The notes under the pieces are model-generated. The model made no database searches. It was not told the origin of the DNA and saw only the letters and a program-made list of their open reading frames with translations. From a virus, in the IMG/VR virus record IMGVR_UViG_3300021081_000015, positions 1 to 29,293 of that record: a DNA stretch of 29,293 bases. The stretch is one strand, 5' to 3'. A program made the position numbers and the translations under genes. The stretch's first letter is position 1. Every line of letters starts with the position of its first letter. Below, piece by piece: positions 3,118-28,679 of this stretch.

Positions 3118-4432
3118 TCGCGTCAACGCCGCCTTCTCCGGCCGCGTAGCGCAGCGCGACAACCAGACCAGCGCCATCTCGATCTACGACTGGGCGCGGC
3201 AGTTCCGCCCGGGCGGCCAGGTCACCTACAACGGCACCCCGTACACGTCGTGGCAGGTTTCCGGCGGCGGTGCGAACTCGGCGCAGTACGACAGCAACTC
3301 GGTCGTGTTCGCCTGCGAATCCAAGCGCATCATGGTGTTCTCCGAGGCGCGGTTCCAGTTCCAGCAGCTGCGCTCCGGCCGCCCAGGCGACCTGTTCGGT
3401 GCCCCGGACCTGTCGGTGCTGGAGACGCCGTGGATAGGCCACACGACCCGCGACCTGCTGGCCCGAGCCGAACTGGATGTCACGGACGCGGGCAACTCGT
3501 ACTGGGTGCGTGACGGTAGGTATCTGCTTCGGCTTGATCCGCAGAACGTCAAAATCATCACCGAGGCTGCGGTTGACCCGGTCAGCGGATTCAGGGTAGG
3601 TGAACGGCTGATCGGCTATGCCTACATGACCGCCCGCGACCAGGTCACCATCTACGACCCGACCGAGATCGCCCATTACAAGCCGATCCCCCACACCGCA
3701 AGCCAGTTCCTGGGCATGTCGTGGCTCAACCCGTGCCTGCCCGACGTCGATGCCGACCGGCAGATGACCGAGCACAAACGGACGGCGCTGCGCAACGGCG
3801 CGAACCTCGGCTACGTCGTCTCCCTCGACGCCTCGATCACCGGTGACCAGTTCAAGGACTTCGTCGCAAAGTTCCGCGAACAGCACGAGGGCCCGGAGCA
3901 GTCCGGCAAAACCCTGTTCCTCGGCGGCGGTGCGGACGTCAAGACGGTTGGACAGTCGTTCGGGGACCTGGCGTTGAAGGCGACCCAGGGCGCCACTGAA
4001 ACGAGGATCGCGGCCTGTGCCGGCGTGCACCCGGTCGTCGTCGGCCTGTCCGAGGGCATGCAGGGCTCGAGCCTCAACGCGGGCAACTATGGCGCCGCGA
4101 AACGCAACTTCGTCGACGGTACGATGCGCCCCCTGTGGGGTGCGTTCGCCTCTGCTTTCGGCTCGCTGGTCAACGTTCCCGCCAGTTCACGGCTCTGGTA
4201 CGACGACCGCGACATCCCGTTTCTGCGCGAGGACGTCACCGACCAGGCCGAGATCCTGGCCAGGAACGCGCAGACGATTCGGGCGCTTGTCGACGCTGGC
4301 TATGACCCCGATGCGGTCATCAACGCAGTCCTGTCCGGCGATGTCGGACGCCTCGTAGGCCAGCACACCGGCTTGTATTCGGTCCAACTTCAAAAGCCCG
4401 GTTCGGGCACATCCACTACGGAGGCATCGTGA
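3077..4432 (+). CDS. HK97-type portal protein
   Basis: About 451 aa. It forms the dodecameric ring at the capsid vertex through which DNA passes. It matches the HK97/PF04860 type in length and in ordered segments: YDSNSVVFACESKRIMVFSEARFQF near the N-terminus, an internal GMSWLNPCLPDVDADRQMTEHKRTALRNGA helix (portal clip/stem region), FVAKFREQHEGPEQSGKTLFL, then the hallmark segment VHPVVVGLSEGMQGSSLNAGNYGAAKRNF. Start choice: ATG 3077 has GTGAGG upstream; GTG 3095 with GCGGGGG just upstream and GTG 3062 or 3071 are possible. It overlaps the end of the small membrane protein gene and ends in a 4-bp GTGA overlap with the protease gene, so translation is probably coupled. Confidence 0.92.
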   Translation: MLSGGTVPTTSALDRVNAAFSGRVAQRDNQTSAISIYDWARQFRPGGQVTYNGTPYTSWQVSGGGANSAQYDSNSVVFACESKRIMVFSEARFQFQQLRSGRPGDLFGAPDLSVLETPWIGHTTRDLLARAELDVTDAGNSYWVRDGRYLLRLDPQNVKIITEAAVDPVSGFRVGERLIGYAYMTARDQVTIYDPTEIAHYKPIPHTASQFLGMSWLNPCLPDVDADRQMTEHKRTALRNGANLGYVVSLDASITGDQFKDFVAKFREQHEGPEQSGKTLFLGGGADVKTVGQSFGDLALKATQGATETRIAACAGVHPVVVGLSEGMQGSSLNAGNYGAAKRNFVDGTMRPLWGAFASAFGSLVNVPASSRLWYDDRDIPFLREDVTDQAEILARNAQTIRALVDAGYDPDAVINAVLSGDVGRLVGQHTGLYSVQLQKPGSGTSTTEAS

Positions 4433-5367
4433 GCGCCGTCATGCTCGACCTGTGTCGCTCGGTGCCGTTCGCGTCGCGTGCGGCCAAAGAGCCCGGCGAC
4501 GGACAGACCCTGGAAGGCCACGCCGCGGTCTTCGGCGAACGAACAATGATCGACTCGTGGGAGGGTTCCTTCTACGAGGTGATCCGTAAGGGCGCCTTCA
4601 AGAAGACCATTCGTGAACGCACGCCGGTCATGCAGTTCGACCACGGCCGGCACCCGCTGATCGGATCCATCCCGATCGGCGCGATCGAGGACCTACGTGA
4701 GGACGACGAGGGCCTGTACGTCCGTGGTCGGCTGTCGGACAACTGGCTCATCGAGCCGGTCCGTGACGCGATCCGCGAGAAGAGCGTGACGGGTATGTCG
4801 TTCCGGTTCTCCGTCGTCCGTGAGGAGTGGCGCGACAACGCGGGCAAGCCCGTCAAGTCTGAGGAGCTCGACACGCTGCTCTGGTCTCCAGGTACGCGCG
4901 GACCGCTGGAGCGGACTCTCATCGAACTGCGGGTGCCCGAGCTCGGTCCCGTCGTGTTCCCCGCCTACGCCGGTACCGATGTCGGTGTCCGCGCCCGCAG
5001 TGTTGCCGGGGATGTCCTCGACGACGCCGATCTGCGCCGAGAGGTGCGCCAGGCGCTGTTCACCGGCAGGTCGACCGATGACGGCATGCCCGACGACCCG
5101 GACCTGCGCCGCGAGGTCGCACGCGCGGTCCTGTTCGGCAACACCCAGACCACGCCGGCCGAACCGCCCACCGGGCGCCCGGCCGACGAACGGCCCGGCA
5201 AGGCCGCCCGCTCCACCGACGCGCCGCCCACCGGGCACCCGTCGCCCGCACCAAAGGACGCGCCGCCCGACGCCGGGCACCCGTCACAGACCGATCAAGC
5301 ACGCCGCCAGCAGTACGTACGGCGCGCCTACGTGACGCGAGAAGGCGTCGGAAGAAGGTTTACGTGA
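4429..5367 (+). CDS. HK97-type prohead maturation protease (family S78)
   Basis: 312 aa. It processes the capsid precursor inside the prohead. GTG 4429 has CGGAGG upstream and overlaps the portal stop. The expected catalytic residues are visible: His in MQFDHGRHPLIGSI (around residues 68-76), Ser in SVTGMSFRFSV (around 119-128), and the conserved ALIELRVPE-type strand (TLIELRVPELGPVVFPAY) near 165-183. The C-terminal 100 residues are unlike the catalytic domain: low complexity and rich in Pro, Asp and Arg, with repeated PPTGRP/PPTGHP units coded by short DNA repeats. The tail may act as scaffold or capsid-interaction segment. The stop overlaps the start of the capsid gene. Confidence 0.9.
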   Translation: MSAVMLDLCRSVPFASRAAKEPGDGQTLEGHAAVFGERTMIDSWEGSFYEVIRKGAFKKTIRERTPVMQFDHGRHPLIGSIPIGAIEDLREDDEGLYVRGRLSDNWLIEPVRDAIREKSVTGMSFRFSVVREEWRDNAGKPVKSEELDTLLWSPGTRGPLERTLIELRVPELGPVVFPAYAGTDVGVRARSVAGDVLDDADLRREVRQALFTGRSTDDGMPDDPDLRREVARAVLFGNTQTTPAEPPTGRPADERPGKAARSTDAPPTGHPSPAPKDAPPDAGHPSQTDQARRQQYVRRAYVTREGVGRRFT

Positions 5368-6794
5368 GCACCAACGACCAGAAGAACACCCGGCTCGTCG
5401 AACTACGCGACCGACTGGGCGACCTGGACTCCCAGATCCTCGGCCTCGCCGAGAAGCAGACCCCCCTCACCGACGATGAGGAGACCCGCTGGGAAGACCT
5501 GACCACCGAGCGCGACACCATCGTCCCCGAGTACGACAAGCTCGAGCAGCGCGCCGCCCGCGTCGCCGAGATCCGCACGAAGACATACCGGGAGATCTCC
5601 GGCCTGCCCGTGGCACGCAAGGCCGTCGACGAGTACTTCGGCGTCGACGTGCGATCCATGGACTGGCGCACCGCCCGAGACGGCGCCCTGCGCATCCTCG
5701 ACGACCGCGAGCAGAACTACTCCCTCTCCGGTCACCAGCAGGACCACATCGACACCAAGGTCCGCAGCGCACGCGAGACCGATCTCGCCCGGCGCATCGT
5801 CGTCACCGAGAACGAGCACTACCGCTCGGCGTTCTACAAGATGATGACCCGCGGCACCCCGTCCGTGCTCACGTCCGAAGAGCACATCGCGATGCTGCGC
5901 TATGAGGAGTACCGCGCCGCGTCGGAGGGCACCACCACCGCCGGCGGATTCGCGATCCCCGTCTTCATCGACCCGTCCGTCATCCTCACCGATCAGGAGA
6001 CCGACAACCCGTTCCTCACCATCGCCCGGCAGGTCAACGTCAACACCAACGCCTGGAAGGGCGTCAGCGCTGCGGGCGTGTCGTGGTCGTTTGACGCGGA
6101 AGGCTCGACGGTATCCGACGACGCCGTCACAATCGCGCAGCCGTCTGTCACCGTCTACACCGCCCGCGGCTTCATCCCGTACTCGATCGAGATCGGGGAG
6201 GACTGGCCCGGCTTCCAGGCCGAGATGGCCCGCCTGCTCGCCGAAGGCTACGACGAGCTGCTCATCAACAAGTTCAGCACCGGCAACGGCACCACCGAAC
6301 CGCGCGGCATCATCACCGCACTGGATGCCAACACCAACGTCGAGGTCGTCTCGACCACGGATGGCGCTTTCGGTTTCGAGGACGTCTACGCGGTCTGGAA
6401 GGCCCTGCCGCAGAAGTACCGCCGCCGGGCTTCCTTCATGATGTCCGTCGACATCAACAACCGCATCCGGCAGTTCGGCGCGTCCAACGTGTACCACGCC
6501 GCCACTGTTTCGCTGCCCGCCGGTGCTGCCGAGGTGCTGTTCAATCGGGCCGTCTACGAGAACCCGTACTTCCCGGACTTCTCAAACACGACTGGGGCCT
6601 CCAACCGCCTAGTCGTGGGCGATTTCAATAACTACGTCGTCGCTCGCCGTAGCGGGATGAATGTTGAGCTTGTGCCTCAGCTCTTCGACGTCACCAACAA
6701 CCGCCCGACCGGCCAGCGTGGCTGGTTCGCCTACGCCCGGATCGGCGGGAACAGCGTCAACGACCTGGCGTTCCGCCTCCTGCAGAACCAGTAA
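5364..6794 (+). CDS. HK97-fold major capsid protein
   Basis: 476 aa, GTG start with GAAGAAGG upstream. The N-terminal 100 or so residues are charged and helical (heptad-like LVELRDRLGDLDSQI, LEQRAARVAEIR), as in the delta/scaffold domain removed by the protease. The coat domain begins near GTTTAGGFAIPVFIDPSVIL (about residue 190) and includes the N-arm, E-loop and the P-domain helix VWKALPQKYRRRASFMMS followed by DINNRIRQFG. The end AYARIGGNSVNDLAFRLLQNQ is a typical strand/helix close for this family. It forms the icosahedral shell. It is immediately followed by a very stable hairpin, which separates it from the downstream genes. Confidence 0.94.
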   Translation: MSTNDQKNTRLVELRDRLGDLDSQILGLAEKQTPLTDDEETRWEDLTTERDTIVPEYDKLEQRAARVAEIRTKTYREISGLPVARKAVDEYFGVDVRSMDWRTARDGALRILDDREQNYSLSGHQQDHIDTKVRSARETDLARRIVVTENEHYRSAFYKMMTRGTPSVLTSEEHIAMLRYEEYRAASEGTTTAGGFAIPVFIDPSVILTDQETDNPFLTIARQVNVNTNAWKGVSAAGVSWSFDAEGSTVSDDAVTIAQPSVTVYTARGFIPYSIEIGEDWPGFQAEMARLLAEGYDELLINKFSTGNGTTEPRGIITALDANTNVEVVSTTDGAFGFEDVYAVWKALPQKYRRRASFMMSVDINNRIRQFGASNVYHAATVSLPAGAAEVLFNRAVYENPYFPDFSNTTGASNRLVVGDFNNYVVARRSGMNVELVPQLFDVTNNRPTGQRGWFAYARIGGNSVNDLAFRLLQNQ

Positions 6795-6892: not shown

Positions 6893-7216
6893 TTGTCTCT
6901 CGTCAAGAACCAATGGCTGGCCGCAGTTACTTCAGACCAGACGACAGCGTCCGAAGAGATCACTGGAGCAAGTTCCTACTGCCTGCATGCGGTGTGGACT
7001 GGCGGACCTCTTTCTGGCGGCGTCGTCGATATGCAGGGTTCTGTCGATGGATCCAACTGGACCAGTCTGGTATCCATCAATTTCGCCAGCCCTGCATATC
7101 CCGCCTCAAGATTCGCATGGGCAAACGATCGGCCAGTGAAATACATCCGTGTAGATCTCTCCGGTCTCGCCGGTGGCACCTCGCCCACGATCACTGCAAG
7201 CGTCCTTGCGGTCTGA
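6893..7216 (+). CDS. Small beta-rich virion protein, possibly capsid decoration
   Basis: 107 aa with a TTG start supported by AAGGAG (6882-6887) at the right distance. The sequence alternates short beta-like segments and turns (SSYCLHAVWTGG, VVDMQGSVDGSNWTSLVSI, RPVKYIRVDLSG, PTITASVLAV), the profile of a small jelly-roll or Ig-like sandwich. Position directly after the capsid gene suggests a decoration or head protein. No named family is recognised. Base composition is noticeably less G+C-rich than its neighbours. The C-terminal layout (RY/K-I/F-R-V … T-x-A-x-L-x-V) resembles the 93-aa protein at 9590. Confidence 0.65.
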   Translation: MSLVKNQWLAAVTSDQTTASEEITGASSYCLHAVWTGGPLSGGVVDMQGSVDGSNWTSLVSINFASPAYPASRFAWANDRPVKYIRVDLSGLAGGTSPTITASVLAV

Positions 7217-7228
7217 GAGGAGATCTCC

Positions 7229-7585
7229 ATGACAATTGTCTTCGCCACTTTCTCGACGTGGGTCACGCCCACGGTGATGATCAACAAGGGTGAGGCGTGG
7301 GATGAGAGCGACCCGGTGGTGCGTTCGCACCCGGATTGGTTCTCGCCGACGCCGCCGGAGGTTCGCACGTCTGCCGCCGCGGTGTTCACGCAGGAATCGG
7401 CGAGTCGTGCACGTCCGGTCGAGCAGGCGACTGCGAATCCGGGCGAGGTACGTTCGCGTACCGATGCCGCACTCGACGAGACCGAGCAGCTGCGTCAGCG
7501 GCTCACCGACGCCGGCTTGAAGCCTGACCGACGATGGAGCCTTGAGCGGCTGCGCCAGGAAGCCGCGAAGGTCGCGGGTGCCTAG
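7229..7585 (+). CDS. Hypothetical head-region protein with LEM/SAP-like C-terminus
   Basis: 118 aa, ATG with GAGGAG upstream. The N-terminus (residues 1-40) is a compact segment reading VTPTVMINKGEAWDESDPVVRSHPDWF, a pattern seen in small proteins next to actinophage capsid genes. A variable linker (45-85) follows. The C-terminal 33 residues (LRQRLTDAGLKPDRRWSLERLRQEAAKV) form a helix-extended-loop-helix layout like HeH/LEM or SAP-type DNA-binding mini-domains. A role in the head or neck is inferred only from location. Its last 8 bp overlap the glycosyltransferase gene. Confidence 0.65.
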   Translation: MTIVFATFSTWVTPTVMINKGEAWDESDPVVRSHPDWFSPTPPEVRTSAAAVFTQESASRARPVEQATANPGEVRSRTDAALDETEQLRQRLTDAGLKPDRRWSLERLRQEAAKVAGA

Positions 7586-8972
7586 GCCGGCAGAGGAGTC
7601 CGTCTGCCTGTCGTATGTCCACGACGTTGAGCTGACGCACTCGTTCGACGACTCGAAGATGCATCTGATGCTGTTCGACTTCGCCAACCATGGACGCATC
7701 ATGCGCGGCGGGTATGTACCGATCCGGTGTGCCCGAAGCTCGACCCTCAGTGAGGCACGCAATCTCGCTGTTGAGGGGTTCCTGTCGGGACCCGCAGACT
7801 GGCTGTTCATCGTGGACACCGACATGGGTTTCGCTCCGGACGTGCTGGAGCGGCTGATCGAGGTGGCTGATCCGGTGGAGCGGCCGATTGTCGGCGGGCT
7901 GTGTTTCGCGCAGAAGGAGATTGCCGCCGACGGGTTGTCCGGTTACCGCACTTCGCCGCGGGTGACGATCCTTGATTGGGTCAAGACGCCTGATGGCGAG
8001 AAGTTCGCGGGCCGGACGCACTTCCCGGTCAACACTGTGGTGCGCTGTGCCGGTACTGGTTCGGCATGCATTCTGATCCATCGCAGCGTGTTCGAGAAGA
8101 TCGCTGCCGAGGTCGGGCCAAACTGGTACAGCCGGGTCACCGGATCCGACGGCAAGCTGATCGGCGAGGACGTCTCGTTCTGCCTGCGCGCCGGTGCGGT
8201 CGGTATGCCGGTGCATGTCCATACAGGGGTGAAGACCTCGCATCTGAAGAACGTGTGGCTGCAAGAGGCTGATTTCTGGCAGCAGGCGACCGTGCCGTCC
8301 GCGGCCGAAGAGGTCGATGTCATCGTTCCGGTGCTGAACCGGCCACAGAACGCCGAGCCATTCATGCGCAGCCTGCGGGCGTCGACCGGCCTGGCGACAG
8401 CGCATGCGATGTGCGACATGGGCGACGACGCGACGATCGAAGCATGGCGTGCCGCCGGTGCGCAGGTGCATGTCCGTCACTACGACATCGACCGCCCCGG
8501 TACGTTCGCCGAGAAAATGAACGAGGGCTATCGCCTCACTTCACGGCCGTGGCTGATGGCAGTCGGTGATGACGCCCGGTTCCATTCAGGCTGGCTCGAC
8601 CATGCCCAGCATGTCGGCAACACCTACGGTGCGCACGTGGTCGGCACGAACGACCTCGGCAACCCGCGCGTCATGGCCGGTGAGCACGCCACCCACCTGC
8701 TCATCCGCCGCAGCTACGTGGATGAGATGGGCGCTTCGTGGGACGGCCCGGGCGTCGCATGCCACGAGGGCTACCGGCACTGGTACGTCGACGACGAGGT
8801 GGTTGCCGCCTCGAAGCAGCGCGGCGTATGGCAGATGGCATTGGGCTCGATCGTCGAGCATCTGCATCCGCTGTTCGGCAAGGGCGCCGACGACGACGTG
8901 TACCGGCTGGGCCAGTCCCATTCCGCCGCAGACAGGAAGGTGTTCGAGAAGCGATGCCAGATCAATCTCTGA
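7578..8972 (+). CDS. Two-domain glycosyltransferase (GT-A fold, family 2-like)
   Basis: 464 aa from GTG 7578 (AAGG upstream, overlapping the preceding stop); an earlier in-frame TTG at 7542 lacks support. Domain 1 (about 10-230) has WLFIVDTDMGF with D80-T-D82, the nucleotide-sugar/metal DXD motif, a GGLCF strand, and IGEDVSFC (the acidic ED pair typical of the acceptor site). Domain 2 (about 245-464) restarts the fold with VDVIVPVLNRPQN, then LMAVGDDARFHSGWLDH (GDD near 331) and YVDDEVVAAS. Such proteins transfer sugars from nucleotide donors. No membrane segment is present, so it acts in the cytoplasm, most simply on a virion protein. It is the first of four consecutive modification enzymes broken only by one small gene. 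Confidence 0.85.
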   Translation: MPRPAEESVCLSYVHDVELTHSFDDSKMHLMLFDFANHGRIMRGGYVPIRCARSSTLSEARNLAVEGFLSGPADWLFIVDTDMGFAPDVLERLIEVADPVERPIVGGLCFAQKEIAADGLSGYRTSPRVTILDWVKTPDGEKFAGRTHFPVNTVVRCAGTGSACILIHRSVFEKIAAEVGPNWYSRVTGSDGKLIGEDVSFCLRAGAVGMPVHVHTGVKTSHLKNVWLQEADFWQQATVPSAAEEVDVIVPVLNRPQNAEPFMRSLRASTGLATAHAMCDMGDDATIEAWRAAGAQVHVRHYDIDRPGTFAEKMNEGYRLTSRPWLMAVGDDARFHSGWLDHAQHVGNTYGAHVVGTNDLGNPRVMAGEHATHLLIRRSYVDEMGASWDGPGVACHEGYRHWYVDDEVVAASKQRGVWQMALGSIVEHLHPLFGKGADDDVYRLGQSHSAADRKVFEKRCQINL

Positions 8973-9586
8973 CTGTGACCGCGGCGCCGTTTCCGCATCT
9001 GGTCCTCGACGGCTGGTGGGATGAGCAACTGCTGCGCAGGGTCGTCGACGAGTTCCCCGACCCGCAGACGCCCGGATGGCGCCGCTTCGAGAACTCCAGC
9101 GAGCGCAAGCTCGAGGGCCCGCCGGGCCTGTGGGGTGCGGCAACGCGGGAGCTGTTCGACCTGATCGAGGCACGCATCCCGGAGCTGGAGCAGGCGTTCG
9201 GCATCCGGGGCCTACGCATGGAGACCGTCGGCGGCGGCTTCCACCTGATCCCGCCCGGCGGCTACCTGGCCGTTCACGCGGACTTCAACCGCTCCCCGCG
9301 GACGGGCCACTTCCGGCGGCTGAATCACCTGATCTACTTGAACGACGGCTGGGACGACGAGGGCGGCCACCTGGAACTGTGGGACGCCGACGGTGGTATT
9401 GCCTCGCTGGTGCCGGAGTTCAACCGGACAGTGGTTTTCGAGACCTCCGACCACTCTTGGCACGGACATCCGAAGGCTGCCGACCGGTGGCGCAAGTCGG
9501 TGGCGGCGTACTTCTTCACCGAAGAGCCCCCGCCCGGCTACATGGCCGAGCACTCCACCATCTGGCACTCAAATCAGGGGGCATAA
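8954..9586 (+). CDS. 2-oxoglutarate/Fe(II)-dependent oxygenase (prolyl 4-hydroxylase-like)
   Basis: 210 aa from ATG 8954, overlapping the glycosyltransferase 3' end by 19 bp. The double-stranded beta-helix core shows the iron triad H108-x-D110 (in LAVHADFN) and a distal His in SDHSWHGHP (H170 best spaced), and a 2-oxoglutarate-binding Arg about ten residues later (R180 in DRWRKSVAAYFF). NHLIYLNDGWDDEGGHLELWD is the characteristic strand pair of prolyl-hydroxylase-like enzymes. The expected reaction is hydroxylation of a side chain or small molecule using O2 and 2-oxoglutarate. Next to glycosyltransferases and methyltransferases, an attractive inference is that it makes hydroxylated residues that are then glycosylated. 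Hydroxylation of a sugar is an alternative. Confidence 0.87.
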   Translation: MPDQSLTVTAAPFPHLVLDGWWDEQLLRRVVDEFPDPQTPGWRRFENSSERKLEGPPGLWGAATRELFDLIEARIPELEQAFGIRGLRMETVGGGFHLIPPGGYLAVHADFNRSPRTGHFRRLNHLIYLNDGWDDEGGHLELWDADGGIASLVPEFNRTVVFETSDHSWHGHPKAADRWRKSVAAYFFTEEPPPGYMAEHSTIWHSNQGA

Positions 9587-9589
9587 ACC

Positions 9590-9871
9590 ATGGCCAATCG
9601 TTCTGATCTTCCTGTTGAGGTGGACACCACCCTGGACGGTTCCGGGGTCTACGTCGGCGCATGGATCGACTCGGCCGGTATCTTCCGGGTCCGCTGCGTG
9701 GTTCAGGGCGCTATTGCCGGTGTCGACGAATCCAGCGATCAGACCAATGTCCTGCGTTCGGTGACCCTTGCCGATGGGGACGAGGTGGCGCTCACGACGC
9801 GTTACTTCCGACTCGTCGGCTCAGGTTCTGCATCTGCGACCTTCCGGGCCGCGCTCCGGGTGGTCGGATGA
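9590..9871 (+). CDS. Small beta-rich hypothetical protein
   Basis: 93 aa, ATG with AGGGGG upstream. It reads as alternating beta strands: VYVGAWIDSAGIFRVRCVVQG, VTLADGDEVALTTRYFRLVGSG, SATFRAALRVVG. No catalytic motif or membrane segment is visible. It is embedded between the oxygenase and the methyltransferases, so it may be a modified virion component or an accessory of the modification enzymes. The end pattern is like that of the 107-aa protein after the capsid gene, suggesting related small beta-sandwiches. The stop overlaps the start of the next gene (ATGATGA). Confidence 0.6.
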   Translation: MANRSDLPVEVDTTLDGSGVYVGAWIDSAGIFRVRCVVQGAIAGVDESSDQTNVLRSVTLADGDEVALTTRYFRLVGSGSASATFRAALRVVG

Positions 9872-10461
9872 TGAGCGCCGTCTACGTCGTCGATCAGTTC
9901 AACCTGGCGGACAGTATCGTGGCCACGGGCCGCCAGGATGCCGAGGGTGCGGTGAAGGTCTGGGAGGACCTTGACCGCTATCGGTCTGTCGTTGCGGCCG
10001 ACCAGCCCGAGGTCATTGTCGAGACCGGCACCCATCTGGGCGGCTCGGCTCGCTGGTTCGCGGCCCTGGGTGTCGATGTAGTAAGCATCGACACATTGCA
10101 GCGCAACCTCGATCGGCAGTCACGAGTCCGATGGCTGATCGGCAACTCGATCGACCCGAATGTTGTCGATGAGGTGCGTCAACTGGTTGCCGATCGGCGC
10201 ACCATGGTAGTGCTGGACTCCGACCATTCCGCCGATCACGTCCGGGCGGAGATCGCCGCATACGGGCCGCTGGTCACTGTCGGATGCCACCTGGTGGTGG
10301 AGGACGGGATTGCCCGGTTCATGGATGGTCATAGCGGAGATCCGCTGGTTGCGATCGAGAACGCGCTCATCGACGATCCGGACTGGGTGCGGGATGTCGA
10401 CACCGAGTCCATGCACCCGGTGACGATGTATCCGGCAGGGTGGTGGATCCGTGCACGCTGA
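9868..10461 (+). CDS. CmcI-like SAM-dependent methyltransferase (cephalosporin hydroxylase family)
   Basis: 197 aa from ATG 9868 (or 9871), overlapping the preceding stop. VIVETGTHLGGSARWFAALG (E52-TGTHLGGSA) is the SAM-binding loop of the CmcI/rhamnosyl O-methyltransferase family (PF04989). VVLDSDHSADHV (D117-S-D119-H) is the conserved metal/catalytic segment of that family, and HLVVEDG follows. Despite the family's historical 'cephalosporin hydroxylase' name, members are mostly O-methyltransferases acting on sugars or small molecules. Here it most likely methylates a sugar added by the adjacent glycosyltransferases. Overlap with the next methyltransferase gene (11 bp) indicates a coupled operon. 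Confidence 0.82.
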   Translation: MMSAVYVVDQFNLADSIVATGRQDAEGAVKVWEDLDRYRSVVAADQPEVIVETGTHLGGSARWFAALGVDVVSIDTLQRNLDRQSRVRWLIGNSIDPNVVDEVRQLVADRRTMVVLDSDHSADHVRAEIAAYGPLVTVGCHLVVEDGIARFMDGHSGDPLVAIENALIDDPDWVRDVDTESMHPVTMYPAGWWIRAR

Positions 10462-10954
10462 AGCACATAGTTGGGTGGCTCAGTACCGCTCCGACGAGTC
10501 GGTAACAGTCCTCGACATCGGCGGCCGGAACATCAACGGCACCACGCGGGACCTGTTCCCTCACGCCGACTACACCACCATTGATATCGCGGCCGGCGAG
10601 GGTGTCGACATCGTCGCCGACGCCGGGGGCTGGGTGCCCGACCGTGAATACGACCTCGTCGTGTGCACCGAGGTGTTCGAGCACACGGCGTCCTGGCCGC
10701 AGATCATCGCTACCGCGTTCAAGGCGCTGCGACCCGGCGGCCAGTTCGTCGCCACGATGGCCGGCCCTGGTAGGCCGCCGCATTCGGCAGTTGACGGCGG
10801 CTGGACGCTTCACCCGGGCGAGTACTACGGCAACGTGGCACCAGAGGACCTGCGCCGAACCTTGGAAGAAGCCGGGTTCGTGGTCCTCGCAGTGGATCGG
10901 CGCAGCACCCCGGCAGATGTGCGATGCGCGGCGACGCGACCTGATGGGGGGTGA
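10451..10954 (+). CDS. Class I SAM-dependent methyltransferase
   Basis: 167 aa, GTG start overlapping the CmcI-like gene. Motif I is VTVLDIGGRNINGT (D22-I-G-G), the acidic post-I residue is in YTTIDIAAG, and the motif IV region reads YDLVVCTEVFEHT, followed by ALRPGGQFVATM. This is the layout of methyltransferase type 11 (UbiE/Coq5-like) proteins. The C-terminal part is short (ends near residue 167), so the enzyme is compact. The substrate cannot be read; genomic context suggests a sugar or modified residue on a virion protein. Confidence 0.82.
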   Translation: MHAEAHSWVAQYRSDESVTVLDIGGRNINGTTRDLFPHADYTTIDIAAGEGVDIVADAGGWVPDREYDLVVCTEVFEHTASWPQIIATAFKALRPGGQFVATMAGPGRPPHSAVDGGWTLHPGEYYGNVAPEDLRRTLEEAGFVVLAVDRRSTPADVRCAATRPDGG

Positions 10955-10957
10955 GTC

Positions 10958-11575
10958 GTGGCGACCACCACCTATGCCTCCCGGGATGAGCTGAAGTCGC
11001 GTATGTCGATCACGGTGACGACGTGGGACATGATGATCGACGACGCGCTGGATGCAGTGTCGCGTGATATTGACGGGCACTGCAACCGAAAGTTCTGGGT
11101 CGACGACGCCGTGTCGGCCCGCATCTACTATCCCGACTGTCGGCGCATGACGGAGATTGACGACTTCTCCACGACGATCGGCCTGGTCATCAAGACCGAC
11201 ACCGGCGGTAACGGCACCTATGCCACGACGTGGGCGAGCACCGACTACGAGTTGAGTCCGCTCAATGGAATTGTCGACGGCGAGACGGGTTGGCCCTTTC
11301 GGCGCATCAAGGCTGTCGGCGCCCTCGAGTTCCCGATCTATCTGACCGAGTACCAGCGCGCGCCGCTTCAGGTGACGGCGAAGTGGGGTTGGGCCGCAGT
11401 GCCGAGTCCGGTGAAGCAGGCGTGCCTGATCCTCGGCGAGGCGACGTTCAAAGCCAAGGATGCGGCGTTCGGCGTGGCCGGCTTCGACGGGATCGGTGTC
11501 GTGCGGGTACGTGACAACCCGATGGCCGAACGCAAGTTGCGCAAGTACCGGCACAACGCGGTACTGGTGGCCTGA
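10958..11575 (+). CDS. Head-tail connector (gp6-like adaptor)
   Basis: 205 aa, GTG start with a G-rich site upstream. The N-terminal helical segment (TYASRDELKSRMSITVTTWDMMIDDALDAVSRDIDGHCNRKFW) is characteristic of the gp6/gp15-like neck adaptors that bind under the portal. A beta-rich middle (ARIYYPDC, TIGLVIKTDTGGNGTY, DYELSP, PFRRIKAVG) and a helical end (VKQACLILGEATFKAKDAAFG) complete the actinophage version. It joins the head to the tail after packaging. It resumes the structural gene order after the block of modification enzymes. Confidence 0.78.
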   Translation: MATTTYASRDELKSRMSITVTTWDMMIDDALDAVSRDIDGHCNRKFWVDDAVSARIYYPDCRRMTEIDDFSTTIGLVIKTDTGGNGTYATTWASTDYELSPLNGIVDGETGWPFRRIKAVGALEFPIYLTEYQRAPLQVTAKWGWAAVPSPVKQACLILGEATFKAKDAAFGVAGFDGIGVVRVRDNPMAERKLRKYRHNAVLVA

Positions 11576-11576
11576 C

Positions 11577-11996
11577 ATGACGGCGACAATCACGCAGGTC
11601 CGCAACGGCCTGAAGACGCGCCTGGCGACGATATCCGGCCTGGAAACCTTCGCCCGCACACCCGGCGGCAGCGTCAACCCGCCGCTGGCAGTCGTGTATC
11701 CGGCGCCGGAACGGTTCCTGCACTACGACACGGCGATGGACGGCCTGGCCGACAACGCCACGTTTCTGATCAAGCTGGCGGTTGCTGGCGTCGAAAGCGA
11801 CGAGGCGGAGACGGCGCTGGACGCCTATCTCGCTCACTCGGGCAGCAGCTCCATCCGGGCCGCGGTCGCCGCCGACAGGCGCCTGTCCGGCATCGTCGGC
11901 TATGCCGAGGTCACCGACGTCGTCAACTACGGCACGACCATCATCGGCGGGCAGCCGTATTTCGGCGCTGACCTGCTGGTGTCGGTGGCGCTGTGA
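11577..11996 (+). CDS. Tail terminator-like protein
   Basis: 139 aa, ATG one base after the preceding stop. The order is an N-terminal helix (TQVRNGLKTRLATISGLE), a Pro-rich loop with NPPLAVVYPAPE, a central strand pair (NATFLIKLAVAGV), a helix (DEAETALDAYLA), and a closing YGTTIIGGQPYFGADLLVSVAL strand pair. This order is typical of the tail terminator/neck proteins found between connector and major tail genes in siphophages. It would cap the tail tube and join it to the head. The call rests on fold-like layout and position. Confidence 0.65.
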   Translation: MTATITQVRNGLKTRLATISGLETFARTPGGSVNPPLAVVYPAPERFLHYDTAMDGLADNATFLIKLAVAGVESDEAETALDAYLAHSGSSSIRAAVAADRRLSGIVGYAEVTDVVNYGTTIIGGQPYFGADLLVSVAL

Positions 11997-12007
11997 GGAG
12001 GTAGGTC

Positions 12008-13462
12008 ATGTCTTTCCCGGCCGCGATCGTTCCTGTATCCGTCACCGGCAAGATCGTGAGCGGCTCGGACGGCGTGACACCAGCCGTCGGCACTGTCACG
12101 TTCACGATGCCGGGCCCACTGTATGACACTGCGGATAATGTGCTGCTGTCGGCGGTCACCTATACGGCGACGCTGAACGGCACCGGCAGTTTCACGATCA
12201 GTCTGCCTCCGACGAACTCACCGAACGTCAGCCCGTCGAACTGGGAGTACGACGTCCACATCCTGACCAACCCGCATTCGGAGTACGGCGCGATCCAAGT
12301 CCCGTACAACGGCGGCACGGTCAGCTTCAACTCGGCGTACACGCCGGGTCTGGCCGCGGTCGGCGGGAACACTTTCGTCCCGGCTTCGGGTGGGACGATG
12401 ACCGGTGATCTGATCCTGTCCGGTGCGGGCACGGATCTGTCTGTGGGTGGTACGTCGACACTGACGGGCAACGTAACCGTCGGCGGGCTGCTGAACGGCA
12501 CATTCTCGGGCGTCTCGGCGAACTTCTTGGAGCTGGTCGCGACGATGCTGTCCGGCGGCGTTATATCCGGCGGCAAGTTCACGATCAACGCCGATCCGAC
12601 GAAGCTGAACATCTCGGCGATGATCGGCTACATCGTCGACTACGACTCGTCGGTGCCGATCAGCTCCGTGAACCCGTCGCTGACCAGGATCAGCCTGGCG
12701 GCGCAGACCGGCTTGTCGCTGACCGGGCCGGGTAGCCAGACCACCACGTGGTGGATGGTCAACAGTGTCGGGGCGATCGTGCAGCAGGCCGCTCGGCCTA
12801 CTCCGGAGCAGCGGCGGCAGAACATCGTTCTCGGCGCGACCGCGCAGTTCAGCGGTGTCATCTTCATCGCGCAAACCTTCCCAGAGAGTCCTTCCCACCC
12901 CAACCAGCAGTATGCCGACCTGGCCGACTCGCTCGGCCCGTTCATGGTCAACGGCAGCATGATCACCGTATCGGCCAACGGCGCCAACCTGACGCTCAAC
13001 ACATCGGGCGGCAGGCTGTTCGCCAGGTCGTTCGCGCAGGCGGCGAACTACCGCAACCCTCACCAGGCCGCGTTGGCCGCGCAGACTCCGGTGTCGTGCC
13101 GGCGGGCATCCGCTACGGCAGTGCTGCCCACCTTGCAGACCGTCCTCGATGTCGCCAACTACGACCTGAACGGCGCGGGCGTGGTCGCAGCGATTCCGGG
13201 CGGCACCAACGTCGCCAGCAACTTCGGCGTGTACGCCTTCGCTACGACTACGACCACTGACCAGATGGCGATCCAGTACGGGCAGGCGGCCTACTCGTCG
13301 CTGGCCAACGCGACCGCCGCGCTCGGCGCGGGCAGCCACATCACCAACCCGCTGTTTGTCGACGGCGCGCTGATCGCCTATATCTCGGTCATCAGGACTG
13401 CCACGAACCTTTCCGACCCGTCACAGTGCGTGATCACTCCCGTGGCGAAGTTCTCCATCTGA
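12008..13462 (+). CDS. Fibre-like structural protein with GGTMTGDL motif
   Basis: 484 aa, ATG with GAGGAGG upstream. Residues 1-110 are beta-rich (VSVTGKIVSGSDG, GTVTFTMPGP, TATLNGTGSFTISLPP), resembling the N-terminal attachment domains of actinophage fibres. Residues around 120-170 have the tail-fibre hallmark PASGGTMTGDLILSGAGTDLSVGGTSTLTGNVTVGGLLNG, short repeats expected to form a trimeric beta-helix. The remainder is a long Ser/Thr/Ala-rich globular part. It would decorate the particle and contact the host or environment. Its location between the tail terminator and major tail genes, directly before a glycosyltransferase gene, is unusual for a tip fibre and fits a head or neck fibre that may be glycosylated. 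Confidence 0.72.
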   Translation: MSFPAAIVPVSVTGKIVSGSDGVTPAVGTVTFTMPGPLYDTADNVLLSAVTYTATLNGTGSFTISLPPTNSPNVSPSNWEYDVHILTNPHSEYGAIQVPYNGGTVSFNSAYTPGLAAVGGNTFVPASGGTMTGDLILSGAGTDLSVGGTSTLTGNVTVGGLLNGTFSGVSANFLELVATMLSGGVISGGKFTINADPTKLNISAMIGYIVDYDSSVPISSVNPSLTRISLAAQTGLSLTGPGSQTTTWWMVNSVGAIVQQAARPTPEQRRQNIVLGATAQFSGVIFIAQTFPESPSHPNQQYADLADSLGPFMVNGSMITVSANGANLTLNTSGGRLFARSFAQAANYRNPHQAALAAQTPVSCRRASATAVLPTLQTVLDVANYDLNGAGVVAAIPGGTNVASNFGVYAFATTTTTDQMAIQYGQAAYSSLANATAALGAGSHITNPLFVDGALIAYISVIRTATNLSDPSQCVITPVAKFSI

Positions 13463-13471
13463 CGAGGGGTG

Positions 13472-14500
13472 ATGCCCGTGAAGTTCCTGATCGTTCATCC
13501 CGGGCCGCAATTCAGCGTTCACGATGTGTACGTAGGTTGGGTTGAGGCGCTGCGCGAACTCGGTCAGCAGGTCGCGGAGTACAACCTCGCTGATCGGCTC
13601 AACTTCTACGGCTCGGCCCTGGTCGAGGACTCGCCCGGCCTGTTCCGTAAGTCGCTCACCAACAGCCAGGTCGTAGAGCTGGCAGTCAACGGCCTCTACT
13701 CGGCGATGTACAAGATGCAGCCCGATGTACTGCTGGTCATCTCCGGGTTTTTCGTCCCACCGGAGCTGCTAGAGCTGGCACGGCAGCGCGGGACTGCGGT
13801 CGTCATCGTGCACACCGAAAGCCCGTACGAGGACAAACGGCAGCTTGAGATCGCCCCATACGCGAACCTGAACCTGCTCAACGACCCGGTCAACATCGCC
13901 GCCTACCAGCAGTACGGCCCGGCCGTGTACATGCCGCACGCCTACCGGCCGGTGGTGCACCACCCGGGCACCGCGGCGCCCGAGATGGCGTGCGACCTCG
14001 GGTTCGTCGGCACCGGCTACGCCTCGCGTATCGAGTTCTTCGAGGCGATGCAGCTCGATGGGCTGCAGGTGCTGCTCGGCGGGAACTGGCAGCAGCTGGC
14101 CGAGGACTCCCCGCTGCGGGCGCATGTGCCGCACGACATTGTGCACTGTCTCGACAACGCGGAGACCGCCGACGTCTACCGCTCGGCCAAGGTGGGCATC
14201 AACTTCTACCGCCGCGAAGCCCAGCATGTCGACCTGGTCGACGGGTGGGCGATGGGTCCGCGTGAGGTGGAGATGGCCGCCTGCGGCCTGTTCTTCCTGC
14301 GCGACCCGCGCGGTGAGGGCGACGGCGTCCTGCCGATGCTGCCCACGTTCGACTCGCCGCAAGAGGCGGGGGAGCTACTGCGCTGGCATCTGGCGCACGA
14401 CGACCAGCGCCAGGCGCTGGCAGATAAGGCCCGTGAGGCGATCGCCGATCGGACGTTCAACCACTATGCCGCGGCGCTGCTGCGGCTGATCATCACCTAG
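13472..14500 (+). CDS. CgeB-like glycosyltransferase (GT-B fold)
   Basis: 342 aa from ATG 13472 (GACGAGG upstream; GTG 13469 is adjacent). The N-terminal Rossmann half begins FLIVHPGPQFSVHDVYVGWVEALRELG and contains QPDVLLVISGFFVP and AVVIVHTESPYED. The C-terminal half has CDLGFVGTGYASRIEFFEAM, a NAETADVYRSAKVGINFYR segment, and GPREVEMAACGLFFLRDPRGEG (near residue 262 onwards), the nucleotide-sugar-binding hallmark of the CgeB/Glyco_trans_1_2 group (PF13524). It transfers a sugar in the cytoplasm. It sits immediately after the fibre-like gene and before the major tail gene, making those proteins the best substrate candidates. Confidence 0.83.
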   Translation: MPVKFLIVHPGPQFSVHDVYVGWVEALRELGQQVAEYNLADRLNFYGSALVEDSPGLFRKSLTNSQVVELAVNGLYSAMYKMQPDVLLVISGFFVPPELLELARQRGTAVVIVHTESPYEDKRQLEIAPYANLNLLNDPVNIAAYQQYGPAVYMPHAYRPVVHHPGTAAPEMACDLGFVGTGYASRIEFFEAMQLDGLQVLLGGNWQQLAEDSPLRAHVPHDIVHCLDNAETADVYRSAKVGINFYRREAQHVDLVDGWAMGPREVEMAACGLFFLRDPRGEGDGVLPMLPTFDSPQEAGELLRWHLAHDDQRQALADKAREAIADRTFNHYAAALLRLIIT

Positions 14501-14509
14501 GGGTGCAAG

Positions 14510-14911
14510 ATGGCTCGCATCAGCGGACGTAACGGCCGCGTCTACATGGGCATCGCGTCGTCGGCCGCACTGGCCGAGCCGCTGCCATTCGTCGCCACGT
14601 ACAACATCAATTTCGCTACCAGCAAGATCGACGTCACCGCGATGGGCGACGCCAACAAGGTGTACCTGTCCGGCCTGCGCGACGCGACCGGTTCATTCAA
14701 CGGCTTCTACGACGATTCGACCGCCCAGACTTACACGGCGGCCGTCGATGGCGCGCCCCGCAAGTTCTACCTCTACCCGAACCTTGATCTCCCGACACAG
14801 TACTTCTTCGGCCAGATCCTTGCCGACCTGACCATCGACGCCGGTGTCGATGGCGCGACCACGATGGCGGCAAGCTGGGCGGCGTACTCGCCGATCACCA
14901 AGCAGGGCTGA
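14510..14911 (+). CDS. Major tail tube protein
   Basis: 133 aa, ATG start. The sequence matches the small actinophage major tail protein layout: SGRNGRVYMGIASSA, then the strand NINFATSKIDVTAMGDANKVYLSGL, the loop GSFNGFYDDSTAQTYTAA and the closing strands PRKFYLYPNLD and TYFFGQILADLTIDAGVDGATTMAASW. It polymerises in hexameric rings around the tape measure protein. There is no Ig-like C-terminal extension, so the tail surface should be smooth. It is followed at 4 bp by the gp10-like gene. Confidence 0.85.
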   Translation: MARISGRNGRVYMGIASSAALAEPLPFVATYNINFATSKIDVTAMGDANKVYLSGLRDATGSFNGFYDDSTAQTYTAAVDGAPRKFYLYPNLDLPTQYFFGQILADLTIDAGVDGATTMAASWAAYSPITKQG

Positions 14912-24735: not shown

Positions 24736-24752
24736 CGTGCGTCCGGGGTCAG
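24736..24752. repeat. 17-bp direct repeat, copy 2
   Basis: Identical to 22730-22746 (CGTGCGTCCGGGGTCAG). It includes the stop of the translocase gene. The two copies bracket the P1/P2 region of about 2 kb. Confidence 0.8.
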
Positions 24753-26470
24753 CGGCGAGAGCCTGCCCACTCGGCCAGATCCCGGCGGGCGTAAAGGTCA
24801 GCCGGGCCGCGCCTTCCGCGCGCTTTCGGCACGGTCCCGATACGCCGCTGTAGCCGCTTCTTCGACGCCTCATACGACCACGGCAGTACGCCGGCGTCTA
24901 CCGCGTCCCGCAAGGTCATCATGTCCCCGTCCACAGGGACATTGCTGCTCAAGCCCCCATCAGGGTCAACTCCTGATGTTGCGAGGGCGCGCGCCTGCAC
25001 AGCCGTCAGGTAACACACCTGCACCTCTACGGCCTGCCCGCCAATGACGACCTGCCACCGGCCAAGCGTGCGAGACGTGCGCGGCATAGCAGCCTCAGGC
25101 ACCAGCATTTTCCACGCGTTGTTGGTGTACCGCGCCAGGCACCTGATGCCGAAATTCTCGCGCGCTTCCGGTCCTCCGATAGCGCGCGCCGTCAGCATCT
25201 GCGCGATCGCGACGACATTCACCTTCGCAGAGCGGCCCATGAACAACAGGTCGGCCAGCGCGGACACGGCCGGCGACTTCTTCGGGTCGCTCTTGTCGCG
25301 GGTCTCGGCCCAGTAGTTGGCGAGCTGCCCGATGGTGGCATTCAGCTCCTCGCAGATCACCAGCGTGCGTGCTCCGGGGTCCCAGTCGTCGGCCTCATGC
25401 ATGGCCAGGGTGTTGCGCTCGTCGGCGAGCGCGGCCAGGCGGACGAGGGCGTCGTGCATCTGCGCAGGCTGCGTGCAGTAGTCCACGCCATCCAGGCCTA
25501 GTGCCCACCGGTGCGAGCCCTTCCGGTCGAGGATGACGACCCGGCCGGCGCGGGCCAGCACCTGCACCGCGAGCAGCTGGGCCAGCACCGACTTGCCCGC
25601 ACCGGAGCCGGCCGACACCGCGATGTGCGGCGAGTCGTCCCGCAGGCTGAGGGTGGACGGCTTGTTGCCAGCGCCCTGCCCGATGTAGAACTCCCACTCG
25701 GCCAGCTTCGGGAAGTGCTCGACCGCCCGGTCGTAGCCGACAGTGGCCGGTGGGCGCTTGCGAACAGTCCACCGGGCCACCACCTTCGGCCCGACCTGGT
25801 ACCAGGACTCGACCAGGTCCGACACCGGGATCTTGCTGCCGATGATGGAGGAGACGAGCTGCCGTTGCTCCTTGGTCAGGTACGGCGAGGCTACGGCCAG
25901 CTCGATCCGCGGCCCCAGCTGCTCGCCCGGCCGACGGAACACGCTCAGCCGCGACGTGGCCGGGCGTGCCTGGCGCTGCAGCGCCCACAGCCCGCGCTGG
26001 GCATGCTCGGGCAGCCAGCGCACCACCGGCTCCACCTGGGCGCCGTACCACGCACGCACGGCCTCCTCTGCCGGTGACAGTGGCTTGGCCAGGCGTGGAG
26101 TCAGTGATCCCAGGGACGTGTCGACGTGCAGGCGTACTGCCGTCGTCAGCCCCAGCGCCGGGCCGATCGCGGCGAGAGTCGGGGCGATGTACTCGGCGTG
26201 GAAGCGCCGTTGCGTGAACCGCTGACGTGCCCGCCAGCCGACCGCGACGACGGCCGACCCGGCGACGGCGGCGGTATGGCCTGGGTAGGTGGCGGTGACC
26301 AGCGCGGCGATGGGGATGCCGAGCCGGTACGCCTGGCGCTTCCAGCCGGGCCAGCGGCCCTCGCCGGGATTGAGGTACGGGTAGCCGGCGCGGCCGTCGA
26401 GTGGGCGACCGGCGAGGAGGCGGTAGCGATACGGGGTCCGGTCTGCTTTGCCATGATGGGCGTACTCCAT
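24749..26470 (-). CDS. FtsK/TraB-like DNA translocase
   Basis: 573 aa from ATG 26470, although no good ribosome site is seen. A hydrophobic segment at about 50-78 (LGIPIAALVTATYPGHTAAVAGSAVVAVGW) anchors it in the membrane. The RecA-like motor has Walker A HIAVSAGSGAGKSVLAQ (about 285-300), VVILDRKGSHRWAL, Walker B TLVICEELNAT (about 370) and an FtsK-type MGRSAKVNVVAIAQMLTARAIGG segment. The last 70 residues (LRDAVDAGVLPWSYEASKKRLQRR … DLYARRDLAEWAG) look like a winged-helix DNA-binding domain. In actinomycete mobile elements (pSAM2 TraSA, TraB) such proteins move double-stranded DNA between cells. In a phage it could instead serve DNA segregation or partition. Nudix and DUF2637-like genes upstream support the mobile-element type. 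Confidence 0.85.
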   Translation of the reverse strand: MEYAHHGKADRTPYRYRLLAGRPLDGRAGYPYLNPGEGRWPGWKRQAYRLGIPIAALVTATYPGHTAAVAGSAVVAVGWRARQRFTQRRFHAEYIAPTLAAIGPALGLTTAVRLHVDTSLGSLTPRLAKPLSPAEEAVRAWYGAQVEPVVRWLPEHAQRGLWALQRQARPATSRLSVFRRPGEQLGPRIELAVASPYLTKEQRQLVSSIIGSKIPVSDLVESWYQVGPKVVARWTVRKRPPATVGYDRAVEHFPKLAEWEFYIGQGAGNKPSTLSLRDDSPHIAVSAGSGAGKSVLAQLLAVQVLARAGRVVILDRKGSHRWALGLDGVDYCTQPAQMHDALVRLAALADERNTLAMHEADDWDPGARTLVICEELNATIGQLANYWAETRDKSDPKKSPAVSALADLLFMGRSAKVNVVAIAQMLTARAIGGPEARENFGIRCLARYTNNAWKMLVPEAAMPRTSRTLGRWQVVIGGQAVEVQVCYLTAVQARALATSGVDPDGGLSSNVPVDGDMMTLRDAVDAGVLPWSYEASKKRLQRRIGTVPKARGRRGPADLYARRDLAEWAGSRR

Positions 26471-26483
26471 TTCTGGTGGAGGA

Positions 26484-26523
26484 GCAGGGCGCGCCCGGGG
26501 TTCCAAGCCGGGGCGCGCCCTGC
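26484..26523 (-). terminator. GCAGGGCGCGCCC hairpin, copy A
   Basis: Perfect 13-bp arms (26484-26496 and 26511-26523) around 14 nt, between the Nudix and translocase genes. The arms share 12 bp with the hairpin at 27146-27186. It is a likely attenuator or mRNA end. Confidence 0.65.
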
Positions 26524-27703: not shown

Positions 27704-28393
27704 TCAGAGCGCGTCGGCCATCTCGGGCTGCTCGACGCCGTTCAGCGCGGGCGCATCTGTCGCCATGCCGTCGTCAGGGCGGGGCATGTACCGCTGCGCG
27801 GTCCGCTCCGAGACACCGATCCGCGCGGCGACGAACGCGGGCGAGGCGTCCGGCTTACGGCTCAGGATCTTGGCGACAAGATCAGGCGTGGTCGGCTTCA
27901 CGATCGGCCGAGGCGCGACCGCCTTCTTCGGCCGGGGCGTGGGTGGCTCCACCGTCTCCGGCGCGCCATCGTCTTCCCAGCTCATGTCATCTGCGGCTGT
28001 CGTCACCGTGTCGTCGGCGGGCACCTTCCCCCGCTTGCCGGTGGCGAGCACCTCGATCACGAGCAGCAGCGCCACAGCGGGCCACGCGGAGATGACCCGC
28101 GAGATCAGGTCCGGCAGCGCGGCAAGGACGTTCGCGACGACACTGGCGGCCACGCCGAGCACGAACGCGATCCAGGCCCAGGTCCGCACCCGATGCCCGG
28201 CCTGCCGGTCCTCGCGCATCACGAGCGTCGCCACGACGAGCATCCCGTCGACGCTGACCGGCAGCAGGGCTGCGACAGTGGAGTGCTGCCCATGGGTGAC
28301 GGCGAGGTCGCGCATGTGGGTGTAGGACGCGTACGCGGCGATACCGGCGACCGCGCCGATGGCGGCGTGCTTGGCGGTGAGGGCGATTCTCAT
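27704..28393 (-). CDS. DUF2637-like four-helix membrane protein with C-terminal HTH
   Basis: 229 aa from ATG 28393 with AAGGAG upstream on the minus strand. Four hydrophobic helices are at about 8-24 (AAIGAVAGIAAYASYTHM), 40-60 (VAALLPVSVDGMLVVATLVM), 72-95 (WAWIAFVLGVAASVVANVLAAL) and 100-117 (ISAWPAVALLLVIEVLA). The loop HGQHSTVAALLPVSVDGMLV is the DUF2637 hallmark, a family recurrent beside FtsK/TraB genes in actinomycete integrative elements. A Pro-rich linker leads to KPTTPDLVAKILSRKPDASPAFVAARIGVSERTAQRYM (about 175-210), a helix-turn-helix. It may be a membrane-tethered DNA-binding or DNA-spread component. Confidence 0.8.
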   Translation of the reverse strand: MRIALTAKHAAIGAVAGIAAYASYTHMRDLAVTHGQHSTVAALLPVSVDGMLVVATLVMREDRQAGHRVRTWAWIAFVLGVAASVVANVLAALPDLISRVISAWPAVALLLVIEVLATGKRGKVPADDTVTTAADDMSWEDDGAPETVEPPTPRPKKAVAPRPIVKPTTPDLVAKILSRKPDASPAFVAARIGVSERTAQRYMPRPDDGMATDAPALNGVEQPEMADAL

Positions 28394-28436
28394 GTCGGCT
28401 CCTTGGGTAGTCGGGGGTGGACGGAAACCGGCGTGG

Positions 28437-28679
28437 TCACAGCTCGCCTCCGAACGTAGCCACGTCCACGTCGCGCAGGGCACGGGCCAGGCGCTGTATC
28501 GCGGCGAACTGGCGGTCGGCCGCGGCTCCCCACTGCTGGTGCGTCTTGCCCATCAGGCTGCCGCCGGGGGCGTTGTAGGCGATACCGGCGGCGTACATCG
28601 AGTTGGACAGGCGGCCCGCCATTGCGGTGATGGCCTGAGCGAGCTGGTAGTGACGCCTGCTGGCGACGGTGCGGGTCAT
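28437..28679 (-). CDS. Small hypothetical helical protein
   Basis: 80 aa, ATG with AGGAG upstream in a leader shared with neighbouring genes. The sequence is helical and slightly amphipathic (YQLAQAITAMAGRLSNSMYAAGIAYNAPGGSLMGKTHQQWGAAADRQFAAIQRLARALRDVDVATFGGEL). No family or motif is recognised. It lies upstream of the DUF2637-like gene, with which it is probably cotranscribed. Confidence 0.6.
   Translation of the reverse strand: MTRTVASRRHYQLAQAITAMAGRLSNSMYAAGIAYNAPGGSLMGKTHQQWGAAADRQFAAIQRLARALRDVDVATFGGEL

Follow-up and report, generated by a model that had tools for sequence, protein, structure and literature searches.

The stretch of DNA described here (hereafter, the window) is the linear IMG/VR virus record IMGVR_UViG_3300021081_000015, 29.3 kb long and with 67% GC. 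Its left two thirds are filled by a late operon, going from the terminase, portal, protease, capsid and connector genes through to those of the tail, namely the adaptor, the terminator, a fibre, the major tail protein, the tape measure and a tail protein. Five enzyme genes are set among these structural genes, and they encode a tandem glycosyltransferase (GT), a 2-oxoglutarate/Fe(II) oxygenase (2OG), two methyltransferases and a CgeB-like GT. Judging from the families and positions of these genes, the enzymes of this actinomycete phage probably decorate its own particles with custom, methylated sugars. The features concerned are the following:

5364..6794, + strand: major capsid protein of the phrog_10 type (PHROG major head protein, 1e-36), the likeliest candidate acceptor of the head-side glycan
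6893..7216, + strand: small, decoration-like protein of 107 aa between capsid and connector, a possible acceptor by position only
7229..7585, + strand: head-tail connector (phrog_9538, 5e-6)
7578..8972, + strand: tandem GT-A (GT2-like) glycosyltransferase with two domains (Pfam/PHROG, alignment, AlphaFold2, Foldseek)
8975..9586, + strand: 2-oxoglutarate/Fe(II) oxygenase of 203 aa (PF13640, 3e-15)
9590..9871, + strand: small protein of 93 aa, missing along with CmcI in the near relative L009
9871..10461, + strand: CmcI / rhamnosyl O-methyltransferase-like enzyme (PF04989, 1e-27)
10451..10954, + strand: MT2, a class I S-adenosylmethionine-dependent methyltransferase (PF13489, Methyltransf_23, 3e-13)
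10958..11575, + strand: head-tail adaptor, the end marker of the head-side module (phrog_442, 1e-14)
11577..11996, + strand: tail terminator (phrog_17840, 9e-18)
12008..13462, + strand: fibre-like protein between terminator and CgeB (phrog_16641, 1e-46), absent from L009
13469..14500, + strand: CgeB-like glycosyltransferase, tail-side (PF13524, Glyco_trans_1_2, 9e-14)
14510..14911, + strand: major tail protein (PHROG major tail protein, 9e-7), the likeliest candidate acceptor for CgeB

These genes are tightly packed: the GT gene overlaps that of the connector by 8 nt, the oxygenase gene starts 2 nt past the GT stop, the 93-aa gene overlaps the CmcI gene by 1 nt, and the latter overlaps the MT2 gene by 11 nt. 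The original prediction had named the five enzymes and described them as mixed with overlapping structural genes; Pfam confirms all five families, and their neighbours are indeed the connector, adaptor, terminator, fibre and major tail genes. Neither the 107-aa nor the 93-aa protein has a family match in Pfam or PHROG.

Regarding the head-side GT, Pfam assigns it to GT2 (PF00535, 1.8e-5), and both of its halves also match PHROG glycosyltransferases. The alignment places domain 1 at about residues 1-240, with D80-x-D82 and E197-D198, and domain 2 at about residues 241-464, where a GDD at 330-332 is conserved. The AlphaFold2 model is confident (predicted local distance difference test, pLDDT, 86), and Foldseek relates it to two-domain GT-A enzymes at template modelling scores (TM) of about 0.3, with chondroitin polymerase as the first match. 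A sequence search of the PDB returned no matches for this enzyme, and among phage isolates there were only partial matches of ~27% identity. At L052:8136-10252, a tandem GT 57% identical to that of the window is followed by a second copy of domain 1 (45%), a duplication within the module.

The CmcI-like protein scores 97.7 bits against RMNT_CmcI (PF04989), above the gathering score of 23.2, and 70.9 bits (1e-19) against the NCBIfam rhamnosyl O-methyltransferase equivalog NF045824, below the cut-off of 400; it is a probable sugar O-methyltransferase. No homologue was found in phage isolates, and a sequence search of the PDB gave no matches. In L015, the intact CmcI gene is followed by a second, truncated stretch encoding the C-terminus again (4128-4277), which probably arose by partial duplication. 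CgeB reaches 52.1 bits against PF13524, above the gathering score of 25, and likewise gave no matches in phage isolates. The oxygenase retains the full H-x-D, H, R set attributed to it, because H101-x-D103, H163 and R173-x-S175 are invariant across nine aligned sequences, with R-x-S corresponding to the 2OG-binding motif described for OGFOD1 (PMC4396695).

The closest named bacterial genome is that of Amycolatopsis pretoriensis DSM 44654, which carries a prophage whose capsid protein is 80% identical to that of the window. Related loci also occur in Spongiactinospora, Streptomyces, Nonomuraea and Acrocarpospora, and the host of the window is therefore very probably an actinomycete. A DNA-level search found no near relatives among phage isolates. 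Outside the genes discussed so far, an HNH-endonuclease-like gene (557-1258, - strand; PF13392, 3e-5, slightly under the cut-off) lies on the opposite strand between the genes of the small and large terminase subunits and is likely a homing-type insertion. The right arm encodes a HerA/FtsK-like ATPase (DUF87; 24749-26506, - strand) and a DUF2637 protein (27704-28483, - strand), a pair usually met in the conjugative plasmids and integrative elements of actinomycetes, and this arm may be plasmid-like.

To compare the locus with others, loci were fetched with the oxygenase, CmcI, CgeB and GT as queries, and the genes of the window were then searched in them by tblastn. The contigs are metagenomic and some are fragments, and all counts depend on the reach of the searches (degenerate peptide patterns, E cut-offs of 1e-4). 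The order across loci is fixed: capsid, connector, GT1-GT2, a variable slot (2OG, CmcI, MT2 and others), adaptor, terminator, CgeB and major tail protein. Many independent contigs have these genes in an identical arrangement, and the cluster is therefore more than a chance assembly. In the near relative L009, whose proteins are mostly 70-82% identical to those of the window, 2OG is followed directly by MT2 and the terminator directly by CgeB, which identifies two insertable units, the fibre gene and the pair of 93-aa gene and CmcI. Elsewhere among the relatives, a GDP-mannose 4,6-dehydratase (1e-110), a nucleoside diphosphate (NDP)-sugar C-methyltransferase, epimerases and a TylF-type O-methyltransferase occupy the variable slot or, in L051, the region ahead of CgeB. 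Because relatives thus also encode NDP-sugar dehydratases and sugar methyltransferases, the set is most economically read as a glycan pathway, a reading that is well supported. Large repetitive or lectin-like proteins are encoded between GT and adaptor in L013, L037, L039, L051 and L055 (Laminin_G_3 in L055); these may be head fibres and glycan acceptors.

An unbiased scan with the capsid protein as sole query retrieved 18 contigs extending at least about 1 kb past the capsid gene, and in all 18 GT domain 1 follows the connector; five others stop at or just past the capsid gene. Two of the 18 carry the oxygenase, namely the Amycolatopsis prophage (L155) and the contig of L015 (L176). At the other end of the cluster, the major tail protein gene is preceded by CgeB in 25 of 25 distinct loci, within 90 nt in 22; two duplicate loci were removed, and 13 of the 25 had been retrieved by queries other than CgeB. 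No CgeB of the window type was found in the Amycolatopsis genome, whose phage has another tail module. These linkages of GT to capsid and of CgeB to tail, together with the Amycolatopsis genome, are the reason why there appear to be two modules, one head-side and one tail-side. Thus, the five enzymes inside the structural operon do not form a single block; they divide into a head-side group (GT, 2OG, CmcI and MT2) and a separate tail-side gene, that of CgeB. The fibre was considered as a substrate of CgeB and set aside, because in L009 CgeB adjoins the tail protein with no fibre present.

Of the oxygenase loci of the actinophage group, those flanked by 2.5 kb of sequence on either side numbered 26 once near-identical copies had been removed. 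Every one of them has a GT of either the window type or the Zuko type within 3.5 kb of the oxygenase, and 23 also have MT2; a 24th (L091) has it 5.2 kb away. Three contexts can be distinguished. The first is the structural lineage of the window. The second comprises phages whose capsid protein is unrelated (phrog_777, 1e-122), several of them 57-58 kb long; here GT-GT-2OG-MT2 adjoins the capsid gene in divergent orientation. The third, the Zuko type, has the order 2OG-GT-MT-GT and is known from about eight IMG/VR contigs as well as from a cultured Streptomyces phage, in which it occupies the right end. An oxygenase of the Zuko type is paired with GTs and MT2 of the window type in L094, L106 and the Amycolatopsis prophage, which indicates that the oxygenase has been exchanged within the set. 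Its recurrence beside the capsid genes of unrelated phages makes GT-GT-2OG-MT2 look like a real pathway. The four are thus found together in three settings, two of them next to unrelated capsid genes and one as an operon in the cultured Streptomyces phages Zuko and KimJongPhill.

The combinations in which these genes occur bear on the order of the steps. Among 38 structural-lineage loci judged complete, MT2 is present in 9/9 with 2OG and in 8/29 without it (Fisher 1.5e-4, a guide only since the rows are related); of the two methyltransferases, it is thus MT2 that accompanies the oxygenase. GT domain 2 is present in each of the nine loci with CmcI, and GT domain 1 stands alone in ten. The content is nearly nested, with GT1, then GT2, then MT2 and then 2OG, exceptions including L046, L047 and L093, which have MT2 and no detected GT domain 2. 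On the GT tree the 2OG trait changes at least 8 times for nine bearers, so the 2OG/MT2 pattern does not derive from one inheritance event. A gene that occurs only in company with the rest, as that of the oxygenase does, is most simply taken to serve a late, optional step and not to provide the obligatory acceptor.

The latter role was the one originally assigned to it: hydroxylation of virion Pro or Lys would create the sugar acceptor, and the methyltransferases would cap the sugars, as in collagen hydroxylysine glycosylation, with which the constant presence of a GT beside the oxygenase (26/26 loci) agrees. The GTs do without an oxygenase in 29 of the 38 loci, and whole 50-54 kb records carrying these GTs contain no member of the oxygenase family. 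Moreover, no capsid residue tracks the presence of the oxygenase, the best nominal P of 0.005 among thousands of column tests not being significant. The best fold matches of the tandem GT include collagen hydroxylysine galactosyltransferase, LH3 and Mimivirus R699, which would suit such a scheme, but at the low TM given above the common ground is mainly the two-GT-A architecture. The relatives of the oxygenase can be read in favour of this scheme as well, since five remote marine ones (L116, L118, L125, L134 and L149) are near genes with long collagen-like G-X-Y repeats, loci that are candidates for hydroxylated phage fibres. So can the protein prolyl hydroxylases that prevail among the PDB profile matches of the oxygenase and head its fold matches. 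On the other side, Paramecium bursaria chlorella virus 1 (PBCV-1) has a prolyl 4-hydroxylase and particles with no detected hydroxyproline (PMC7019647). We consider an acceptor-first order unlikely, and what stands of the elaborate pathway first proposed is a glycan pathway of several steps, linked to virion genes, with a conserved oxygenase/GT/methyltransferase set.

The structural matches of the oxygenase speak to its substrate. A sequence profile search of the PDB returned OGFOD1 (1e-8), HIF prolyl hydroxylases and prolyl 4-hydroxylases (P4H), and all matches below E 1e-5 are protein prolyl hydroxylases except PasI and PolD. The AlphaFold2 model is of moderate quality (pLDDT 74), with 4j25 matched by Foldseek at 5.8e-7 and a TM of about 0.6, and its double-stranded beta-helix is nearest to those of the prolyl hydroxylases, that is, P. 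putida P4H, the PHDs and Tpa1/OGFOD1. PasI, whose structure was determined with octosyl acid phosphate, and PolD also appear among the fold matches, and neither is a protein hydroxylase. The best match among viral models (TM 0.75, 24% identity) is a giant virus protein of 616 aa named GDP-mannose 4,6-dehydratase, whose length allows it to be a candidate fusion of that dehydratase with this oxygenase domain. Given a prolyl-hydroxylase-like fold, yet a best viral match with such a name, both protein and sugar are possible substrates, and we lean slightly towards a sugar. That the enzyme is a phage protein hydroxylase, forming hydroxyPro or hydroxyLys on capsid or decoration proteins, some of which would then receive methylated glycans in a collagen-type manner, is a doubtful but arguable alternative.

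Sets of an oxygenase with GTs (TET/GT clusters) are known in phage DNA hypermodification, and the enzymes of the window could by analogy act on nucleobases. The oxygenase matches PF13640 and the prolyl hydroxylases, with no TET/JBP or AlkB-type domain at E 0.1 in Pfam and none among the PDB matches; the module has no DNA C5-methyltransferase, and its methyltransferases are of sugar or small-molecule types. DNA hypermodification was rejected on these enzyme-family grounds and is very improbable.

Considering the enzyme families, their intact active-site motifs, the conserved order, the linkage to capsid and tail genes and the nested content, we favour a two-module system, encoded by the phage, that glycosylates the virion and has the oxygenase as a late tailoring enzyme, and give this reading a probability of about 0.5. 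On the head side, domain 1 of the tandem GT would add one sugar and domain 2 another to a protein of the head, for which the major capsid protein or a small decoration protein is the most likely candidate. MT2 and the CmcI-like enzyme would then O-methylate these sugars, and the oxygenase would contribute an optional late oxidation or hydroxylation, either of the glycan or of a residue of the glycoprotein. On the tail side, CgeB would glycosylate the tail tube protein encoded beside its own gene. The targets, the sugars and the order of these steps are predictions, and virion proteins are the likeliest targets in view of the gene linkage to capsid and tail.

Several observations weigh against this reading. 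Protein prolyl hydroxylases dominate the sequence and fold matches of the oxygenase. In the phylogenetically corrected test of 2OG against MT2, the supported independent pairs are too few for significance, although never in the opposite direction. Nesting is not absolute, because MT2 is missing from a 55 kb phage that carries 2OG together with GT domains 1 and 2; in this phage, GT domain 2 is a stand-alone gene adjoining the oxygenase, and GT domain 1 is 11 kb away. The GT domains and CgeB of the window have no significant similarity to gp108-110 of mycobacteriophage Che8 by blastp or hhalign. Finally, the Zuko set is far from the structural genes, and the marine relatives of the oxygenase sit within sugar clusters resembling those for host glycans, among GT, GDP-mannose dehydratase, epimerase and cytidylyltransferase genes. 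For these last two reasons a host-surface target is possible, with the enzymes altering a host glycan (receptor masking, superinfection exclusion) and merely riding in the late operon. This would leave unexplained the fixed slot between capsid connector and adaptor and the position of CgeB beside the tail tube gene in many phages, as well as the capsid-adjacent set of the second lineage; in addition, the families matched include no polyprenyl-phosphate GT. We regard it as quite improbable.

To our knowledge, among phages only a few mycobacteriophages have so far been demonstrated to have glycosylated virions, and the glycosylation affects antibody recognition. Should the module act on virions, a whole lineage of actinomycete phages, most of them uncultured, would have glycosylation as a constant feature; these phages would modify the glycan with methyl groups, custom sugars and an oxygen-dependent step, and the set would pass from one capsid type to another, unrelated one. 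The cultured representatives, namely Zuko, KimJongPhill and the prophage of Amycolatopsis pretoriensis, make this directly testable.

When compared with known systems, the single enzymes resemble characterized families to different degrees. The oxygenase shares its fold, the HxD...H triad and the RxS motif with P. putida P4H, PHD2 and OGFOD1/Tpa1 (PMC4396695), but is only 14-21% identical to prolyl hydroxylases and has a fold also common to PasI and PolD. The CmcI-like enzyme has PF04989 in common with the rhamnosyl O-methyltransferase/CmcI family, with a score far under the NCBIfam cut-off for rhamnosyl O-methyltransferases. 2OG oxygenases of unknown role are carried by many cyanophages (PMC9602691). 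As for whole systems, chlorovirus PBCV-1 offers a likeness in A064R, a GT-GT-methyltransferase for the capsid glycan, encoded along with a prolyl 4-hydroxylase (PMC7019647): here, too, two GT domains and a sugar O-methyltransferase make a virus-encoded capsid glycan, although the virus is eukaryotic, the structure is an N-glycan, and the hydroxylase has no known role in it. Closer at hand, the gp109-106 region of Zuko and KimJongPhill encodes a 2OG 38% identical to that of the window, an MT2 about 42% identical and GTs, which form one overlapping operon in Zuko; it differs in gene order, in lying outside the structural region, in having only remotely similar GTs and in being annotated just as hypothetical, GT or MT.

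In the mycobacteriophages Che8 and Corndog, the reported targets of the phage GTs are the capsid and the tail tube (PMC12363180, PMC11600133), and virion glycosylation is also reported for Myrna (PMC12363180). In cluster O mycobacteriophages such as Corndog an O-methyltransferase adjoins three GTs (PMC11600133), the same combination of GT and methyltransferase has been interpreted alike in a Rhodococcus phage (PMC13313380), and gp108 of Che8 (L180:8172-9347), annotated as a glycosyltransferase, joins a GT2 domain with a TylF/Methyltransf_24 domain in one protein. Decoration of capsids by glycosyl- plus methyltransferases is already known, and methyltransferases accompanying virion GTs are not new either; what appears to be new is GT-GT-2OG-MT2 as a unit and its linkage to unrelated capsid genes, of which we found no description in the open-licence literature. 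No oxygenase of the window family was found in mycobacteriophage records, and the glycosylation genes of Che8 are at the right end of its genome, whereas those of the window are inside the structural operon. With Che8, Corndog and Myrna the window shares phage-encoded GTs and a methyltransferase placed beside them (cluster O) or fused to them (Che8 gp108). Since the GTs are without recognisable relation, the system would, if our interpretation holds, be Che8-like in its working rather than a member of that family by descent.

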